Source of the DNA: a virus | Strand: one strand, 5' to 3' | IMG/VR virus record: IMGVR_UViG_3300033571_019687 | Coordinates: 62,001-126,000 of that record | DNA length: 64,000 nucleotides | Part shown: positions 4,024-64,000 of the stretch, in pieces | How positions within the stretch are numbered: the first letter of the stretch is position 1 | Layout: every line of letters begins with the position of its first letter | Position numbers and translations under genes: made by a program | The notes under the pieces: generated by a model | What the model was told of the DNA's origin: nothing | What the model saw: only the letters and a program-made list of their open reading frames with translations | Database searches by the model: none

Positions 4024-6358
4024 TAATGATATTTTATCTGTTGTAAAAAATAACCTTTTAGTTATTGACCCAAATAAGGTTATTGATAACTATAATAAGG
4101 TTGCGGATAGATATGTAAAACAGGAGGATCTAATAATGTATGCAAACCTTAAGGCTGTTATAAAACAACAGACCGGGGTTTATGTTGGTCCAAATGGTAG
4201 TGTAGAAAAACAGAACAATACTGATAAAGAGATCAATCTAGGTGAAGTTAGATTTAATCTATTAAATCCACAAGATAAAAATACAAATGGTCAATATGAG
4301 TTTAAGAATGTTTTAACCAATCAATACTTAGATTATGAAGGTAAAGGGTACTCGGACACATTTGGTATTCAATCAATAAGTATTAATCAAAATGCTTCAT
4401 TGGTATCTCAAGTTAGCATTACTTTTGTTGATGTTCAAGGTAGGACATTAATGGAACGTGGTAATGAAGAAAATAACCCATATAATTTATTTTATACATT
4501 TCCTTATCCACAATTTATATTAACAGTTAAGGGTTATTATGGTATGACTGTTGACTACCCTTTATATCTATTGAAGACTAATAATACTTTTGATTCTAGT
4601 ACAGGAAATTATACAGTTACATGTGAATTTCTATCAAGAACTTATGGTGTTTTTAATAGCTTTTATAGTATATATGGGTTAATTGCACCATATCTAATTA
4701 AATTAGATACCGGAGAATATTTGGGTAGTAATTTATTAAAAAGGTTATATGAACTCCAAAATGCTGATATTGCATCAAAATATGTAAATCAACCTGACAT
4801 GATAAGAGCATTAACAATTGAAGGTGCTCCAACCATGATTGATTTATATACTGCAATAGATTCGTTAACTGAAAGCGGATTTGGTACTAATGTTAATAGT
4901 CTAAGTATTAAGACAACTATTGATACTATTAATAACTCTAAGATTAGGTTAGAAAATTCTAGGTTTATTATAGGTAACGCTTTTAACAATAAGAACAATT
5001 CTTTAATTGATAACGAGCTAAAAGCTATTGTTACAACATTACAAAATTTATCTCCTATATTACCGGCAATAGATAATGATATTAAGTTATATTCTTCATA
5101 TACACAATCTATTTTCAATAAAAATATAGAAGACACTATAACAAAAATTAATAAGGAATTATCAATACTCAACGAAAAACTTGTTAATGAGCAAGTGTCA
5201 GACATAAAAAACAAATTGGGTTTTGAGCCTAGCATAAGAAATATCACAAGAGTATTATTAAACTCTATGGAGGTATTCTTATATTTACTGTCAGAGGTAT
5301 CATTTGCTGCAAAATCACAGTTGTTTTATGATGGTAATAGAAGGGATATACACATTAATACTATTAAGCAATATGCTTTTGATACTATTAATGGTAAGAA
5401 CTTATACCCATTCCCAAATTATTATAAAGATAATAATGGTACACCTTCTAAAATATATCCCGGAGAAGATCAAAGAAATGTTAAATGGGCTGAGGTATAT
5501 TTTATTGATGAAATATATAGATCAATACAAGTTATAAAAGATAGAATTAGCCCCGAAATGGCTGATCAACTTGGTATCTCTCAAATATTAACAGGCCATT
5601 TAGATCCTAATAAAGCACCAAAGGATAAATTCATATCAAACAATGAAGAGGATATTTTGGCCGAAATAATACTTGATATGTATATTTACTTTACTTCAAA
5701 GGGTTACTCATTATTAGAAAATAACCTTAATGATGATGTTTTAGACAATATTGCACAAAGTTTTATTGATTTTCAAATACAGTTATTAGAATATAAAATA
5801 GATAAGTCTGATAAAAATGCTATATATTCTACTATCAGTAAGATGATTGACATTATTAATAGACCTAATTCAAATGGTGACGCATTAACTTCTATAAAAG
5901 AATATTTTTCAGTTAAAGTCGGTGATAAAATGCCTAGTATAGTAAAAGAATTTAGAGATGTATTTAGTAAATCAACTGATTATATTCAACAAAGAACTGA
6001 ATTAAATAAAATATATGTTAAGTATAATTTAACTGGTAATGATTTATACTCTAAACTGTTAAACATAAGTTTTGATTTTAAAAATAAGATTGAAAGTTAT
6101 GCTAATCTTAATAATTTAGTAGATAGTGTTAACTATAATAAACCGGATATTAGTAAATCAATAAATGGTGTTATAAAAGATATCATACAACTAGATATAA
6201 GTGACGGTATATTAAATCAGCAAATATTTAATATTGCGAATAGCGGAGTTTTTATACCCACAACTCATAATTTATCAGAAAATAATATAACTTATAAAGC
6301 ATTATTTGTTGAAGATGCTTTTAAAGGTTTAAGTAATTATACTAGTTTAATTAAGTAA
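4010..6358 (+). CDS. Putative baseplate hub protein
   Basis: About 782 residues. I chose the ATG at 4010, which overlaps the previous gene by 14 nt; the frame can be extended to a GTG at 3992, but ATG starts are the rule here. Residues about 100-230 look like a folded beta-rich domain: alternating strands (VSQVSITFVDVQGRTLMERG), then YPQFILTVKGYYGMTVDYPL and a YTVTCEFLSRTYG segment. This is the kind of pattern seen in hub/spike-carrier proteins. The C-terminal two thirds are helical and Asn/Asp/Lys-rich with no catalytic motif. It lies between the gp53-like protein and a hub-lysozyme fusion and shares its stop region with the next start (TAATG, 1 nt overlap). A gp27-like hub role is inferred from content and position only. 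Confidence 0.5.
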   Translation: MLTTNNDILSVVKNNLLVIDPNKVIDNYNKVADRYVKQEDLIMYANLKAVIKQQTGVYVGPNGSVEKQNNTDKEINLGEVRFNLLNPQDKNTNGQYEFKNVLTNQYLDYEGKGYSDTFGIQSISINQNASLVSQVSITFVDVQGRTLMERGNEENNPYNLFYTFPYPQFILTVKGYYGMTVDYPLYLLKTNNTFDSSTGNYTVTCEFLSRTYGVFNSFYSIYGLIAPYLIKLDTGEYLGSNLLKRLYELQNADIASKYVNQPDMIRALTIEGAPTMIDLYTAIDSLTESGFGTNVNSLSIKTTIDTINNSKIRLENSRFIIGNAFNNKNNSLIDNELKAIVTTLQNLSPILPAIDNDIKLYSSYTQSIFNKNIEDTITKINKELSILNEKLVNEQVSDIKNKLGFEPSIRNITRVLLNSMEVFLYLLSEVSFAAKSQLFYDGNRRDIHINTIKQYAFDTINGKNLYPFPNYYKDNNGTPSKIYPGEDQRNVKWAEVYFIDEIYRSIQVIKDRISPEMADQLGISQILTGHLDPNKAPKDKFISNNEEDILAEIILDMYIYFTSKGYSLLENNLNDDVLDNIAQSFIDFQIQLLEYKIDKSDKNAIYSTISKMIDIINRPNSNGDALTSIKEYFSVKVGDKMPSIVKEFRDVFSKSTDYIQQRTELNKIYVKYNLTGNDLYSKLLNISFDFKNKIESYANLNNLVDSVNYNKPDISKSINGVIKDIIQLDISDGILNQQIFNIANSGVFIPTTHNLSENNITYKALFVEDAFKGLSNYTSLIK

Positions 6359-9300
6359 TGCTAACACATAGTGAATTTATAAAAAGTATTAGTCCTATAT
6401 TTGAAAATTTTATTCTATTAGATGATGATGTCATAGATAGAAGCAGTGAAAGTGTTTCACATAGAGAAAAACTTTATTTGGGTGAGACTAATAATAATTC
6501 ATTAAATAACTCTTTTTCATACAAAGGGGTAAAAAAAGTGTTACCTTATATTTTACCGGAAGCTACTATTAACTTTAATGACCAAGAGTTTGTTAAAATG
6601 TTTTTAAGTAATACCGGCTATATTAAAATACCTCTTTCTTTAGCGTTAAAATTAAAACTCGCATTTGATACTTTAACTGACAGAGTATTAACCGATGATA
6701 CTACAGAATTTAGGCTTTCATCAAAAACACTTGAAGAATTATTAACAGAAAATGTTGATAAAGATGAGATAAATAGGTTATTAAATGATATTAGAGTATC
6801 AAGCAACTCAGATGTTTCATTACCTAATATAGCTATAGATTTTGCCAAAGAGAATTTATATGAAGACATTACACTATCAGCTTTAAGAAAGTTATTGGTT
6901 AAAATACCAAATTTTGATGCCGAAAGTATTAATATATATGCAGAGAAATTATATGGTGCTTATGTTTTGGGAGGATATAGTTATAAATTCATACAGAATT
7001 ACTCTACTTTTATTAAAGATTTTAATGATAGATTAACATTACTATATGCTAACTCTAGCAGGGATAAATTATTAAGTCATAAAGATTCTAATTTACAAAG
7101 CGTATTTATTATGTATTGTAAATTAAAGGCTGATTATATTCAAGGTAATATATCAGATTCTGAATATAATCAAATAATAGATGAATTAAACAATAATAAA
7201 TGCAATGATAGTGCATTAAGTAATTACCCAAAAATTATATGGTATATTACTAATTATTTACTTGAACCAAATAAAACACAAAAGACACCTAGAAGTCAAC
7301 TAAATAGACCAGTTTCTACAACAGATGCTAGAGTGTTTCTTAATAAACATTGGGAATATAAAAAGAGGTTATATACCGAAGAACTTTTTGATACTAAAAA
7401 GTGGAATATAGATCAAACCGGTAATATATTATTATTACCATCATTTGGTGGTATAAACTTAAATATAAGCAGCATATTGCCTAATATTACTACTAATACT
7501 CCAACAGTATATTCAAAATTTTTATGGTTTGATAATCTTGCAAATGATAAACCAAGTATATCAATATCAAGGGGTGAGTTAAAGAATATATCAAACACTA
7601 AAGTAGCGTCTGGAAAAATTACAACAGACTTGTTGTTAACTAAACTTAATTTACTTGATACCATTTCTAATTTTAATTATACCGAATATACATTAACAGT
7701 TGATAAAATATTATCATTGATAATGACAGTTGGTTATGATGATATAGAAGAAATTATAACACCTATAGGTACTATAAGTTATACGAAAGATGATTTATTT
7801 TCCATCATAGTTGCTAATGAGAGTAATTATGCTGAATACATGCGTGTATATAAGTTAGGGAGATTAATCAATGTCAGCCTAGCATCAGCACAAAATAATA
7901 GGTATAACAAAGTAATTCAAGAATACATATCTCAGTTTATTATTGTAAGAAATGACGAATTTATAGATTTAGATAATGACTTTTATAAATTACCATTTTT
8001 ACCAAATATTTTGTATAATGTTTCAAATGATACAGAATTTGCGACTAGTTTAATTGGGACATTTGATATGAACGGCATTAATGTTAACTTATTTGATAAG
8101 TTAAAAGAACAGTCACCTTATGTCAATGATATTACTTTAAGTGGTATTAGGGATAGTAAAATGATACCTTATACTCTATCAACTGGTAGTAGATTTAACA
8201 GTAATTCTATATCATTTAATTATATTACTCAATTAGAATCTGATAAAATTGCTGCTAGAAACAATTTGATTAATAATCATATAATTAATACACATAAGTT
8301 AATTCGTTATTCGTTAAATAAACTTAAGTTAAAACTATTACAGTACACAAATTCTAATAGCGAATCGTTTATTTTAGGTAATAATTCAAATAATGATATT
8401 GTTAAATTTAAAGCTGATACCTATTATAATTTAAAAGATATACATGATAGATATATATCTTTTGGTTTGGATAGTGAGCGTACATATTTGAAACTTGGTG
8501 ATAATATACCTATTAATACCAATGTTGATGACATATTATCTAGGGATTTGTTTTATGCATTTAATTTAGACGCTTACTGTAATACAAATATTGGTGGTGT
8601 TAAAAAGAGCGGGTTCTTTTACAATACATTAAAAATAGTAGATAAAGGTAACAACGACATTGGTCATAAAATGTATGTGGATTTGGTAGATTTAAAATCA
8701 ATACTTAATATTAAGGTTGATAATACATTTAATGTTGAGACATTAACTAAAACAACGTATTTTGGATTATTATCTAATATAGCCAAGAATAATAAATTTT
8801 TAATGCACACCATTTCAACCTATGCTAATTTTACATCGGCAATAGGGAATGAAACTCCGCAAGAATATGCAAATAAGTTATTTGGTCAACATACTACATT
8901 AGCAAGGATTGATAATACACCATCTTTGGTATTTCAATTAGCTTCATTAACATCTGAATCTAATAGTAACATATTATATAATCCGATGAATACGTTTTGT
9001 ATGGATATTGATACAACAGATAATGTAATTAAAGTAATTGATGATCCAAAAGGTAAAATACCGACAGATATATTAGATGGGGATGGTTATGTATCATCTT
9101 TTATTGTTGATTTTGCCAATAAAAACCAAAGTATGTTTAAAAACATAACAGTCAGTACGTCAGAATTTACAAACACAGAGGAATCTATAAAATCATTTGT
9201 GAATATGGTGAGTAATACTGCTGAAACCAAGGCAATTGTTTCTAGTAATAACTTATTTAATATCATTCAAAGTAGATCATATACAGCACAGGTTACGTCT

Positions 9301-52549: not shown

Positions 52550-55081
52550 ATGAATATTATAAACACAAACATTAAAAGTAGATATTTCAATGTAATACCA
52601 ATAGCATTTAGACCAGATAAATCTGTTACTTATGTTGTTGAATCTAAGAATGACAATGAAATATTTGCATTACTTGAAGAAGTATTAGTTTTTGATAGAA
52701 GAGTTATTGAACCAAGCGCATATAAATCGAATGAAGATTATTGGGATGCGGTATATGCTGCAAATGGTGATAGTTTTGAAGCAAAAGCCGCATTAAATAA
52801 AATGATACCTACTTACCAGCAAGATCCAGAAACTGGTAAAAAGAAATTTGTTAGAGATGAAGATGGTAATATTGTTGCTACTAGAGCTATTGGTAGAAAC
52901 GATGTTAATACAGGTGAATTCGCTGCATCTAAGAAACAAGGTCAAAGTGCTGGTACTAGTGGTAACTTACTACAAAATGGGAAAACTGTAGTTAGAGTTG
53001 CGGAGATAAAAACAAAATTACTTTCTTATACAAAAGAGGATAATTCATACGGCGAAAACAAATTTTTATATAACAGTACAACCGGCAGATGGCAATTCAC
53101 TGCAACTTATGACAAATCACCAGATGGCGAAGTATTGAGTTTGGGTGAAAATAAGTTAACATCATTTTTGGCTTTGGCCGATAAGTATTTAGATGAAATG
53201 TATAAACTACAAATCCCTGAAAGGATATACAGATTATATCAAAATAATAAACTTGGTGTTCCTATTGTAAATAAAATTATGACATCAGGGATTAGAAAAA
53301 AACCTGTTATCAGTATTGGCAGTAAAGGTGTTGATGTTAAATTTAGGGGAAAAACAGAAGCTGAACAGGCCGTTGGTACTTTTATGGCAACAGCATTGCC
53401 GGTGATAAATAAATATATTCGTGAAATTATTGAAGATGTATCTGTAGGTGAATTGGTAGGTGATTTAGCTGAAAGAATGGAAGAATTGAAAATAAATTCT
53501 GATGCTGGTGATTCTTTAACTGTTAATAATGTTAATGTTACTGATATGAAGCCATATCAAAAAGCATTTCAACAAAGAATAAATCAATTAACCTATGCGA
53601 TTAGATCTAATGAATTTACTGTAGATGAATTCTTTAATAACCAACCAAAGTTTGAAAATATAAGAAATTATATCGAAAGAAGTAAAATTTCTAATTTATT
53701 GGGTAAAGAAGAATTTAGTTTTTTCCCTAGAGTTAATGCATTACTTTTAATGTTGTATTCTGAATTAGATGGTAAAACATATACACTAGCCAATGTTGCT
53801 GACGACACGTCATGGACGAATGCTGGGTATGCCATTAAACCCGGTGCCATGCCATTGTATTTGCTTACCCCAGCTTATGAAACAAGAAATATTGATAGTG
53901 GAGTAAAGGGTCAGGTTGATGTAGATAAAGCTAATGAATGGATATCAACATATTCTCGTAACAAAAATTTAACGTATGAAGAATTAGTTGAATTGGCTAA
54001 TAGTGGTCAAGCGACAGAAGAACAATATGCTACTATGAGATTCATTAGTAACGCATTTATTAAAGCACCTCAAACAGATAGAACATCTAGTAGAACAAGT
54101 ATTACAGCATATTTTAGCGACAATGACGTTGTCTATATTGGCGGTAATAAATCTAAGCGAGGGTTTACTGCTAGAGATATAATGAATTCTGCTGATCAAA
54201 TTGTTAATGTTGATCCATCAACTAATAGATCAAAGATGTATATTTTCTTGGATTATGATTACAACAAAGAAAATTCTTTAAGACCAATGATTGTTTTTAG
54301 AAATTATATCAAAACTCTTATTGCTAAATTAGGTGGGTCACCTAGATTGGGGATTATTCCTAAAGTAACACCTGATATGAGTGATGAAGAATTTAATGAT
54401 AGTTATAACGCTTTATACAATAATATTCGTATTGGTCTTGAAGATGGTATTAAAGTATTATTAGATAATATTGATAATATAGAAAATGATACTAGAGCCG
54501 TTGCAGATATTAAACTTAGATTACAAAATCTAGGTATCGATACTGGTGTAGGTGGCAGAAAAGTGACTACCATAAACCCTTTATTTACACAATATTTTAA
54601 TAATGCCGCTAATAATGAAGATATAAATGAAACTAGGGCTGAAATATTGGCTAACATGGTTTTATATTACTACGGTTCTCAAAATGCTAGGGAAGCTATT
54701 ACTGAATTAACTACATTAATGTTATCAAGTATGGTACCTAAACAATTTGTAGAAGTTGAGAAAAATGTAATACTTGTAGTGTTTAAGAACTTTATTAAAG
54801 ATTTAAACCGTATTAGAAATGAATCTGTTAAAACTAATCAGGTTAGTACTAAAGATGCTGAATTAGTAAACTTAAGGGGTAATAAATCTATTATGGAGAG
54901 TTATGGCTTTGAGGTTTATAATGACATTATTGATAAAAACCTTATTTATCTTGATTTAAAAATGATCAATAATAGTGAGACTTTATTAAGTGAACTTTTC
55001 GATAATTATCAATTTGCTAATAAGGCATCCGCAGTATTATCTGAAATAAACAACCTCTTAAAATTAAAAAAGAATGGCTAA
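52550..55081 (+). CDS. Large late protein with an ArdC-like patch (possible virion-internal protein)
   Basis: An 843-residue protein. Around residues 390-445 there is a pattern reminiscent of the ArdC N-terminal (ssDNA-binding, antirestriction) family: FFPRVNALLLMLYSE, then SWTNAGYAIKPGAMPLYLLT with Trp422. This mimics the N..LLL...W......G..V..G pattern of ArdC. The metalloprotease motif of full ArdC proteins is not seen. The rest is helical and polar, with a coiled-coil-like C-terminus. The size and late-type promoter are consistent with a virion or virion-internal protein. If the ArdC resemblance is real, protection of incoming DNA is an attractive role, but this is speculative. It overlaps the next gene by 8 nt. 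Confidence 0.5.
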   Translation: MNIINTNIKSRYFNVIPIAFRPDKSVTYVVESKNDNEIFALLEEVLVFDRRVIEPSAYKSNEDYWDAVYAANGDSFEAKAALNKMIPTYQQDPETGKKKFVRDEDGNIVATRAIGRNDVNTGEFAASKKQGQSAGTSGNLLQNGKTVVRVAEIKTKLLSYTKEDNSYGENKFLYNSTTGRWQFTATYDKSPDGEVLSLGENKLTSFLALADKYLDEMYKLQIPERIYRLYQNNKLGVPIVNKIMTSGIRKKPVISIGSKGVDVKFRGKTEAEQAVGTFMATALPVINKYIREIIEDVSVGELVGDLAERMEELKINSDAGDSLTVNNVNVTDMKPYQKAFQQRINQLTYAIRSNEFTVDEFFNNQPKFENIRNYIERSKISNLLGKEEFSFFPRVNALLLMLYSELDGKTYTLANVADDTSWTNAGYAIKPGAMPLYLLTPAYETRNIDSGVKGQVDVDKANEWISTYSRNKNLTYEELVELANSGQATEEQYATMRFISNAFIKAPQTDRTSSRTSITAYFSDNDVVYIGGNKSKRGFTARDIMNSADQIVNVDPSTNRSKMYIFLDYDYNKENSLRPMIVFRNYIKTLIAKLGGSPRLGIIPKVTPDMSDEEFNDSYNALYNNIRIGLEDGIKVLLDNIDNIENDTRAVADIKLRLQNLGIDTGVGGRKVTTINPLFTQYFNNAANNEDINETRAEILANMVLYYYGSQNAREAITELTTLMLSSMVPKQFVEVEKNVILVVFKNFIKDLNRIRNESVKTNQVSTKDAELVNLRGNKSIMESYGFEVYNDIIDKNLIYLDLKMINNSETLLSELFDNYQFANKASAVLSEINNLLKLKKNG

Positions 55082-56400: not shown

Positions 56401-56706
56401 ATGGTAATAAAGCATAAATTAACCGAGTCGCAATTAAAATCTATCATAAAAGAATGGTTAGATGAAGACGGTAAAGAAGTTATAAATGAATCTGTAGATA
56501 AAACAGATGTTAAAGAACTTATTAAAAAAGAGTTGGCATCATTTGCTAAGAGCGATGAATTTAAAACTCAGATTAAAAATATGGTTCTTAAAGAAGTTAA
56601 AGGTAAAGATGCTGAAAAATATATTGTTGAAATAACTAAGAATGTATTAGCTGATGTTTATAAAACATTGTGGTTAAGAAAAAACACATTATTTGCTGGG
56701 ATCTAA
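56401..56706 (+). CDS. Small late protein with LTES N-terminal motif
   Basis: A 101-residue, Lys/Glu/Asp-rich helical protein. Its start HKLTESQLKSIIKEWLDE matches the pattern (LTES, then helix with II) at the N-terminus of the minus-strand protein at 61009-61401. Such N-terminal motifs recur in proteins of some large myoviruses and could be a targeting or prohead-processing signal, but that is inference. It is the first gene behind a CTATTTA promoter and lies 1 nt before the next gene. Confidence 0.55.
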   Translation: MVIKHKLTESQLKSIIKEWLDEDGKEVINESVDKTDVKELIKKELASFAKSDEFKTQIKNMVLKEVKGKDAEKYIVEITKNVLADVYKTLWLRKNTLFAGI

Positions 56707-61008: not shown

Positions 61009-61401
61009 TTAGTAAACAATGCTGTATTGACTCATAATATCAACTTTACAGTTTGTTAATTTTCTATAAACAGCATAAAGACTATCTCTAATCTCTTTAT
61101 TTTTTTCACTTGCAGCAACTTCACTTAATTTAGACAAAGCCACATCATATAAATTCAAAAACTCTAACATGTCTTTAGGTGGATTTTTAATTTCTAGTGC
61201 TGTTTCCATAGGATCTTTTTCATCCAAACCTTTTTTTGTATCAAGATGAACCGGCGCATTTGGTTTATTATAATCAACCACACGATCTTCTTTATTACCT
61301 AACATGTCTTCAATTTCCTTTAATCTTTCCTCACTAACGTTTTCGGCGATTATGTTCTTAATCTCAGATTCAGTGATATTCAATTTAATTTTCTTGCTCA
61401 T
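61009..61401 (-). CDS. Small minus-strand protein with LTES-like N-terminal motif
   Basis: A 130-residue helical, charged protein. The N-terminus KKIKLNITESEIKNIIAEN follows the same T-E-S plus helix pattern as the protein at 56401. The middle is polar and Asp/Pro-rich and the C-terminus helical. The minus-strand CTATTTA (61426-61420) lies 18 nt upstream of its start, which puts it in the candidate late class. It ends 24 nt before its own terminator. The shared N-terminal motif hints at a common destination with the 56401 product. Confidence 0.55.
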   Translation of the reverse strand: MSKKIKLNITESEIKNIIAENVSEERLKEIEDMLGNKEDRVVDYNKPNAPVHLDTKKGLDEKDPMETALEIKNPPKDMLEFLNLYDVALSKLSEVAASEKNKEIRDSLYAVYRKLTNCKVDIMSQYSIVY

Positions 61402-61419: not shown

Positions 61420-61426
61420 TAAATAG
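61420..61426 (-). promoter_or_regulatory. Candidate late promoter (CTATTTA, minus strand)
   Basis: On the minus strand CTATTTA is followed by TTACTAAA, with 18 nt to the ATG at 61401. This is the only minus-strand member of the motif family I found before a gene. It lies 24 nt from the edge of the TGTCA-box array. Confidence 0.5.
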
Positions 61427-61449: not shown

Positions 61450-61506
61450 TGACATGATGTCATATCACTGTCATACATAATATGACAAAACTTGTCATTA
61501 TGTCAT
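61450..61506. repeat. TGTCA/TGACA box array in a divergent intergenic region
   Basis: Within 57 bases there are six TGACA/TGTCA core units: TGACAT at 61450, TGTCAT at 61458, 61469, 61493 and 61501, and ATGACA at 61482. The first two form the palindrome TGACAT-G-ATGTCA. The third and fourth form TGTCATA-5 nt-TATGACA, a perfect 7-bp inverted repeat. The array lies between two divergent genes. The likely function is an operator for a dimeric regulator; an iteron-like initiation site is an alternative. Confidence 0.7.
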
Positions 61507-61570
61507 GTTTTATGTATTGGCATAGGTATTGTAAATGGTTTAGTACAAACTTTAAAACCTAAGTAAAACT

Positions 61571-61903
61571 ATGTTCACAACAGATTTATTATTTGACTTG
61601 TTGCAAACAGGAATTAATGCAACAGCTAACACCACATCACCAGTTACTTATAACTTTGCTGGCTTGTCAGCAGAAGATCTTGAGATTACTCAAGAAAAGA
61701 GAGGATCAGTGTTTTATTACACACTAACTCTAAAATTTGATGACAAGCATGAGTTATACGATGTTCTTAAAACTCGTTTCAAGAAACAGTATGTATTGAA
61801 AACTTACTGCGAGGTTGATTTCAAATTTAAGAATGGACTGTTGATTACTACACCTAAACAGGAAACTGTAACCAAGGAAAAGGTAACAATCAAAGTGATG
61901 TAA
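61571..61903 (+). CDS. Small protein of unknown function under its own control region
   Basis: A 110-residue protein, helical at the start (TTDLLFDLLQTGINATAN) and then beta-rich (SVFYYTLTLKFDD; KTYCEVDFKFKNGLLI). No family recognised. It is monocistronic: the TGTCA-box region lies upstream and a perfect terminator follows. Its base composition is G+C-richer than its neighbours (about 43% in one 60-base stretch), like the 5' part of the gp32-like gene, which may indicate strong expression. No good Bacteroidota promoter or CTATTTA is visible before it. Confidence 0.6.
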   Translation: MFTTDLLFDLLQTGINATANTTSPVTYNFAGLSAEDLEITQEKRGSVFYYTLTLKFDDKHELYDVLKTRFKKQYVLKTYCEVDFKFKNGLLITTPKQETVTKEKVTIKVM

Positions 61904-61909
61904 CAAATA

Positions 61910-61940
61910 AAAGCCGGATTTTTATCCGGCTTTCTTGTTT
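61910..61940 (+). terminator. Intrinsic terminator after the 110-residue gene
   Basis: AAAGCCGGAT (61910-61919), loop TTTT and ATCCGGCTTT (61924-61933) form a perfect 10-bp stem followed by CTTGTTT. It isolates the small regulated gene from the glycosyltransferase operon. Confidence 0.85.
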
Positions 61941-62993: not shown

Positions 62994-63670
62994 ATTTACT
63001 TATAAAATTTCCAACTAGACAGCGACCAGATACATTCATTAGAGTATTGGGATTATATAGAAGCCATTTAAGCGGTCTTAATAGAGTTAAGTTTTTGATT
63101 AGTTGTGATAATGATGATCCAACAACTAATAATGATAATTTTAGGAAACGTGTACATAAAGTATTATCAGATATAGAATATGAAATTGATTATGCTGATA
63201 ATAAAAACAAAATACAAGCAATAAATGCCGGACTAACCTCAGAACGATTAGATGGATTTGATGTAATACTTTTAGCATCAGATGATATGATTCCGGTAAA
63301 ATATGATTATGATGATTATATTGCAGAAGATTTTGAAGAACATTTCCCTGACTATGATGGTGTATTATGGTACAATGATGGGTACCAAGCTAAAAATTTG
63401 AATACATTACCTATATTAGGTGTTAAGTATTTTAATAGATTTGGTTATATTTATCACCCATCTTATTATTCTTTATGGTGTGATAATGAGTTTATGGATG
63501 TTGCAAGTATTTTACATAAACAGGTTTATATAGATGAGATTATAATTAATCATCAACATCCGGTTTGGACTAATCAACCTTGGGATGATTTACAAAAGAA
63601 AAACGATATGTTTAATAATACAGATCGTGAAAACTATTATAAAAGAAAATCAAACAATTTTGACCTATGA
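62990..63670 (+). CDS. Glycosyltransferase, GT-A fold (GT2-like)
   Basis: About 226 residues from the ATG at 62990 (a GTG 12 nt upstream is in frame but less likely). Features of GT-A enzymes are visible: LLIKFPTRQRPDTF at the N-terminus, a VKFLISCDNDDP strand, an Asp-rich LLASDDMIPV segment that could be the metal-binding DxD equivalent, and a YYSLWCDNEFMDVA acceptor-side motif. It overlaps its neighbours by 4 nt each (ATGA), so the GT-B enzyme, this enzyme and the ClpP-like protease are translationally coupled. The sugar and target are unknown. Confidence 0.7.
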   Translation: MNLLIKFPTRQRPDTFIRVLGLYRSHLSGLNRVKFLISCDNDDPTTNNDNFRKRVHKVLSDIEYEIDYADNKNKIQAINAGLTSERLDGFDVILLASDDMIPVKYDYDDYIAEDFEEHFPDYDGVLWYNDGYQAKNLNTLPILGVKYFNRFGYIYHPSYYSLWCDNEFMDVASILHKQVYIDEIIINHQHPVWTNQPWDDLQKKNDMFNNTDRENYYKRKSNNFDL

Positions 63671-64000
63671 GCATTTATAGCATACCAACAGTACCTGAAT
63701 ACAGTAATACTAACTTAATCAATGTAGATATTTTTTCAAAACTATTAAAAAATAGAGAAATCCTTTGTTTCGGTGAAATATCACAAGAAACATCTATAAT
63801 GATTAATAGTCAATTACTTTACTTAGATTCTGTAAGCGATGATCCAATCACGATTTACCTTAATTCGGGGGGAGGATCGGTTTATGATGGTTTAGCCATA
63901 ATAGATACGATGCGTTATATTACTTCGGATGTTAAGATTGTATGTACTGGAGTATGTGCATCTATGGCAGCAGTTATATTAGCATCTGGTGATCAAAGAT
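63667..64000 (+). CDS. ClpP-like serine protease (3' end outside window)
   Basis: The first 111 residues of a ClpP-family peptidase. The hallmark motifs are ITIYLNSGGGSVYDGLAI (oxyanion-loop Gly-rich strand, residues 61-78) and CTGVCASMAAVILASG (residues 93-108) with the nucleophile Ser99. The His and Asp of the triad would lie beyond the window edge. In phages, S14-family proteases serve as prohead proteases or as ClpP variants; which applies here cannot be decided from this part. It overlaps the preceding glycosyltransferase by 4 nt. Confidence 0.85.
   Translation, partial: MSIYSIPTVPEYSNTNLINVDIFSKLLKNREILCFGEISQETSIMINSQLLYLDSVSDDPITIYLNSGGGSVYDGLAIIDTMRYITSDVKIVCTGVCASMAAVILASGDQR

Follow-up and report, generated by a model that had tools for sequence, protein, structure and literature searches.

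A dense array of TGTCA/TGACA boxes between two divergent genes of a tailed phage probably serves as the upstream activating region for a promoter of sigma-54 type, which would drive a phage gene coding for an Hsp20-like chaperone (61571-61903). Its sequence is most readily interpreted as a host heat-shock enhancer and promoter that the phage has copied in strengthened form. The window, i.e. the whole stretch of 64,000 nucleotides that was analysed, comprises bases 62001-126000 of an IMG/VR virus record of 133,874 bp; its G+C content is 29 %. PHROG matches to a baseplate hub, a DnaB-like helicase, a portal, a terminase and a major head protein identify a tailed phage. Bacteroidota-style promoters (TTTG...TATATTTG) are present within and around the phage tRNA cluster and, judged from promoter style only, the host is probably a member of the Bacteroidota.

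The tRNA cluster (record 129930-133300) harbours 13 tRNA genes, interspersed with several promoters of Bacteroidota type and with recurring GATTTACATC stretches; two of the tRNA predictions are odd, showing an anticodon of two or four bases. A long AT-rich gap at record 53484-53864 contains numerous TAATA repeats, and from record 133368 to the end an open frame starts that by eye resembles a TnpB/OrfB transposon protein.

The initial annotation described six copies of a 5-bp core in 57 bases, arranged as two inverted repeats (TGACAT-G-ATGTCA and TGTCATA-N5-TATGACA) plus a direct TGTCAT pair 8 nt apart, and all six boxes and both arrangements were confirmed. The number of TGWCA boxes per 57 nt, six in the array, reached a maximum of only 2-4 in 150 first-order Markov genomes, and a search of the complete 133,874-bp record for further TGTCA/TGACA clusters yielded three boxes as the next densest. 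TGTCAT alone shows no enrichment across the window (38 observed, ~50 expected). Since the reverse complement of TGWCA is again TGWCA, it makes no difference whether a copy is direct or inverted, and the array is most naturally described as two TGWCA-N3-TGWCA pairs plus two single boxes (Table 1). The distance from the distal to the proximal pair is 43 bp, or ~4 helical turns.

Table 1 Features of the box array and its surroundings (positions in the window)
Feature	Position	Strand	Remarks
CTATTTA late-type promoter element of divergent gene 61009-61401	61420-61426	-	From sequence
Distal box pair TGACA-TGA-TGTCA	61450-61462	+	Boxes at 61450 and 61458; centre ~-88 from predicted start
Single box TGTCA between the pairs	61469-61473	+	From sequence
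Single box TGACA	61483-61487	+	Forms TGTCATA-N5-TATGACA with the box at 61469
Proximal box pair TGTCA-TTA-TGTCA	61493-61505	+	Boxes at 61493 and 61501; ends 12 nt before TGGCA; centre ~-45
Sigma-54-type promoter TTGGCATAGGTATTGT	61517-61532	+	GG 61519-61520, N10, GT 61531-61532
Predicted transcription start	61544	+	12 nt downstream of the -12 base, from sigma-54 promoter geometry
Hsp20/alpha-crystallin-like gene, 110 aa	61571-61903	+	PHROG Hsp20, E=0.015
Terminator-like hairpin after the Hsp20-like gene	61910-61933	+	From sequence

The plus-strand gene had been annotated as lacking a visible standard promoter; this view has to be abandoned, as a sigma-54-type promoter sits just downstream of the array. 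Sigma-54 promoters are recognized by GG and GC dinucleotides 10 nt apart (TGGCAC-N5-TTGC). The sequence TTGG-CATAGGTATT-GT at 61517-61532 agrees with this pattern except for the last base, which is changed from C to T. The array's proximal pair, in front of this promoter, is the only box pair in the record that precedes TGGYA. With the start predicted from sigma-54 geometry, the transcript would carry a leader of ~27 nt. Repeated dyad-like upstream sites and a GG-N10-G element are shared with promoters served by sigma-54 (RpoN) and enhancer-binding proteins, and the upstream sites in the window stand in helical register, as is characteristic of sigma-54 activator sites. Unlike typical sigma-54 promoters, this one resides in a phage, its -12 element is GT instead of GC and its predicted activator sites are centred at ~-45 and ~-88, the nearer one being unusually close for an enhancer site; both the GT and this proximity count against the proposed reading. 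On the first viral matches a sigma-A reading was considered, in which TGGYA...TTTG represents the Bacteroidota -7 element (TAnnTTTG). It was dropped because the unforced constant proved to be a G ten bases after GG.

The product of 61571-61903 appears to be a divergent Hsp20-like protein with a low score. It stays below the PF00011 gathering cut-off (14 bits vs 20.8), while its landmarks GLSAEDLEI and KNGLL align with phage Hsp20s. A structure model built with an Hsp20 alignment (pLDDT 57) gave Hsp20s as best matches, evidence that is partly circular because the alignment consisted of Hsp20s; a model without alignment was uninformative. The Hsp20 profile search bears on the family and not on the 110-aa member itself, and the later rounds of an iterated Hsp20 profile search, spoiled by UVR proteins, were left out. 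The hairpin behind the gene is consistent with a monocistronic unit. By eye, the start of a ClpP-like gene is found at window 63667-63999, and an 800-aa ATP-dependent protease is encoded at record 6611-9013; together with the Hsp20-like gene these may possibly constitute a phage proteostasis set. Phage-encoded small heat-shock proteins are also known from cyanophages, with no sigma-54 promoter mentioned in the opening of the abstract of that report (PMC5028025).

No close relatives of the locus were found by DNA or with the Hsp20-like and glycosyltransferase proteins. Related viral contigs were picked via the major head protein and then searched with the Hsp20 family, and seven of them carry Hsp20. 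Upstream of hsp20, TGGYA followed by G at GG+N10 was found in 7/7, the element not being forced; two contigs share one sequence, so these represent six distinct promoters. In most of the seven, a TGWCA pair ends 12 nt before TGGYA. The window shows the same layout of pair, N12, TGGCA and GG-N10-GT, and in the relatives the promoter element is conserved as GG-N10-G(A/T/C).

These phages also bear on the divergent gene. The minus-strand gene with a CTATTTA promoter, as initially annotated, is real; in this phage CTATTTA is a motif of late-type promoters, lying upstream of 23 genes and ~43-fold enriched in such upstream positions. Since the array lies ~23 bp upstream of this element, it might be an operator around the CTATTTA promoter, acting on the late gene 61009-61401 or on both genes. 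This is very unlikely: what is conserved in the arrangement is oriented towards the plus-strand gene, the related phages keep it upstream of hsp20 with other upstream neighbours, and the remaining CTATTTA promoters are without a comparable box cluster. By eye, the products of 61009-61401, of window 56401-56706 and of record 5544-6578 have in common an N-terminal segment resembling LTESxLKxIIxE, which may be a shared tag.

Scanning viral sequences for the box pair with TGGYA gave 108 loci, many of which precede hsp20, dnaK or UVR-motif genes, as assigned by crude regular expressions with eight proteins checked with Pfam. UVR-motif proteins are the third kind of viral product encoded downstream of the box-pair/TGGYA promoter. 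With the box order of the window (TGTCA-N3-TGTCA-N12-TGGCA), at least 18 of 61 viral sites precede chaperone-type genes and the unforced G at GG+N10 is present in 16 of these 18; an N17 version of the scan placed 0/73 sites before such genes. In a scan for two pairs, with the gap from pair to pair left free at 19-49 bp, the sites before chaperone-type genes displayed spacings of 21-22 (7 sites), 30-32 (33 sites) and 41-42 bp (3 sites) only. Their unforced YA after TGG was found in 43/43 and G at GG+N10 in 36/43. The spacing between viral pairs was thereby shown to follow steps of the DNA helical turn, at the level of sequence; the 43 bp of the window lie just outside the 41-42 bp class. Extra boxes occur in 64/72 viral promoters vs 15/57 host promoters, the viral ones being phylogenetically non-independent and the counts not independent events, because promoters were merged only where identical in sequence. 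Some viral promoters have T or A at GG+N10, mostly in one group of UVR genes, and some viral contigs, above all those bearing dnaK, may be host DNA.

That the functional element is a hairpin, formed by RNA or by single-stranded DNA, is extremely improbable. The region does fold better than shuffled sequences (z = -3.1), but it lies upstream of the predicted start, the boxes and their helical spacing are conserved rather than the pairing, and direct and inverted pairs both occur.

Bacteroidota chaperone genes carry the same module. A scan of bacterial genomes with TGACA-N3-TGTCA-N12-TGGCA-N5-TTG resulted in 89 loci, of which a simple classifier placed 35 before dnaK and 23 before groES. Matches in Sulfurovum and planctomycete genomes were rejected, the site lying in or beside apparently conserved coding sequence and not before chaperones. 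RpoN was found in 118/118 sampled Bacteroidota genomes. Sigma-54 control of GroEL, GroES, GrpE, DnaJ, DnaK and IbpA in Bacteroidota has been predicted earlier (PMC12316311). That regulon shares its promoter class and the targets GroES, DnaK and IbpA/Hsp20 with the present set, but its promoters were predicted in bacterial genomes; the text mentions no upstream activating site or UAS, and phage shock protein A is its sole mention of 'phage' (PMC12316311).

Seventy Bacteroidota groES upstream regions, sampled without reference to the motif, fell into 27 with a CIRCE-like operator and 43 without. TGGYAY was present in 40/43 of the latter, 36 of these 40 also having G at GG+N10, a combination found in 0/27 of the CIRCE-type regions. 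HrcA/CIRCE likewise exerts heat-shock control on groES, but differs in its operator (TTAGCACTC-N9-GAGTGCTAA) and in not co-occurring with the sigma-54-type element in the 70 upstreams, where the two appear mutually exclusive. This operator is also absent from the intergenic sequence of the array. In 10/40 non-CIRCE groES upstreams with TGGYAY, a box stops exactly 12 nt short of TGGYA. A strict box-pair test on the unselected regions was positive in only 4/70, because many groES upstreams keep one box or none. A further repressor system, from Actinobacteria, is RheA of Streptomyces, with the operator TGTCATC-N5-GATGACA before the small heat-shock gene hsp18. The central TGTCATA-N5-TATGACA of the array resembles this operator, whereas its defining element is the TGWCA-N3-TGWCA pair adjoining a sigma-54-type element.

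The composite of box pair, N12 and TGGCA was thus shown by sequence to precede host dnaK and groES as well as viral hsp20, dnaK and UVR-motif genes, and in the window this Bacteroidota heat-shock layout (box pair, N12, TGGYA) stands before the low-scoring Hsp20-like gene. The proposal of an operator for a dimeric activator or repressor named the right class of element, given that the pairs recur at fixed promoter distances; it did not assign the array to the plus-strand gene, nor recognise the module as a copy of a host heat-shock promoter. Iterons of a replication origin, mentioned as a less likely option, gained no supporting evidence and have a negligible chance of being correct: short repeats, densely packed within AT-rich DNA, would suit them, but hosts and viruses alike show this spacing in front of dnaK, groES and hsp20 genes.

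Neither a sigma-54 nor an activator can be recognised in the phage record, which gave no match to the RpoN DNA-binding domain or a Fis-type HTH. Its PF00158 match was rejected as an activator since it falls inside the 800-aa protease. Among hosts, one receiver-less activator with G(A/S)FTGA is common to four motif-bearing genomes; the candidate activators have GAFTGA and a Fis-like C-terminus. One of these four genomes, the smallest and possibly incomplete, yielded no other activator with G(A/S)FTGA than the receiver-less protein. In 7/10 groES regions the activator gene lies upstream of lptE-like and secG-like genes (labelled by eye and from known gene order), followed by groES; in Capnocytophaga bilenii it is located elsewhere, and in two further regions not within the stretch. 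Orthology and gene order make this protein beside secG-groES the best candidate for acting at the array, as support short of proof.

A host sigma-54 activator, less surely the receiver-less GAFTGA protein whose gene precedes lptE-secG-groES-groEL, would bind to the pairs in a cooperative manner, along a single face of the DNA. Once bound, it would remodel host RNA polymerase-sigma-54 at 61517-61532, and the phage gene would therefore be switched on with the host heat-shock regulon. The trigger may be protein stress caused by infection, or a host that is already stressed. Use of sigma-54, the activator, heat induction and a benefit to the phage are what we infer from these sequences. It has also been considered that the promoter is of sigma-54 type while the pairs bind a stress-released repressor or accessory factor beside polymerase, with the activator acting elsewhere or from solution. 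This is unlikely: the proximal pair does adjoin polymerase and groES promoters often keep GG-N10-G without an exact box at N12, but helical-step spacing and the abundance of extra viral boxes fit cooperative activation better, and the activator gene neighbours groES.

Sigma-54 control of Bacteroidota chaperones was predicted previously; the box pair, its phasing, the candidate activator and the viral copies are new here, and in the searchable literature the box element, its phasing and its use by phages were not found. A wider hypothesis, to which we give about an even chance, is that large phages of Bacteroidota put hsp20, dnaK and UVR-motif genes into the host sigma-54 heat-shock regulon, with multi-site versions of the host enhancer in helical register that let these genes win out over host targets or respond to milder stress, the activator being the receiver-less protein beside secG-groES. 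The results yield a cis-regulatory code that can be tested (TGWCA-N3-TGWCA, N12, TGGYA, GG-N10-G) and name a candidate activator for the heat-shock response of the Bacteroidota, where CIRCE is missing from more than half of the groES genes sampled (43/70). They suggest that the phage reads the protein-stress signal of its host via the host's own machinery, and that expression of the phage chaperone may be tied to this signal and not to its own early/late programme.
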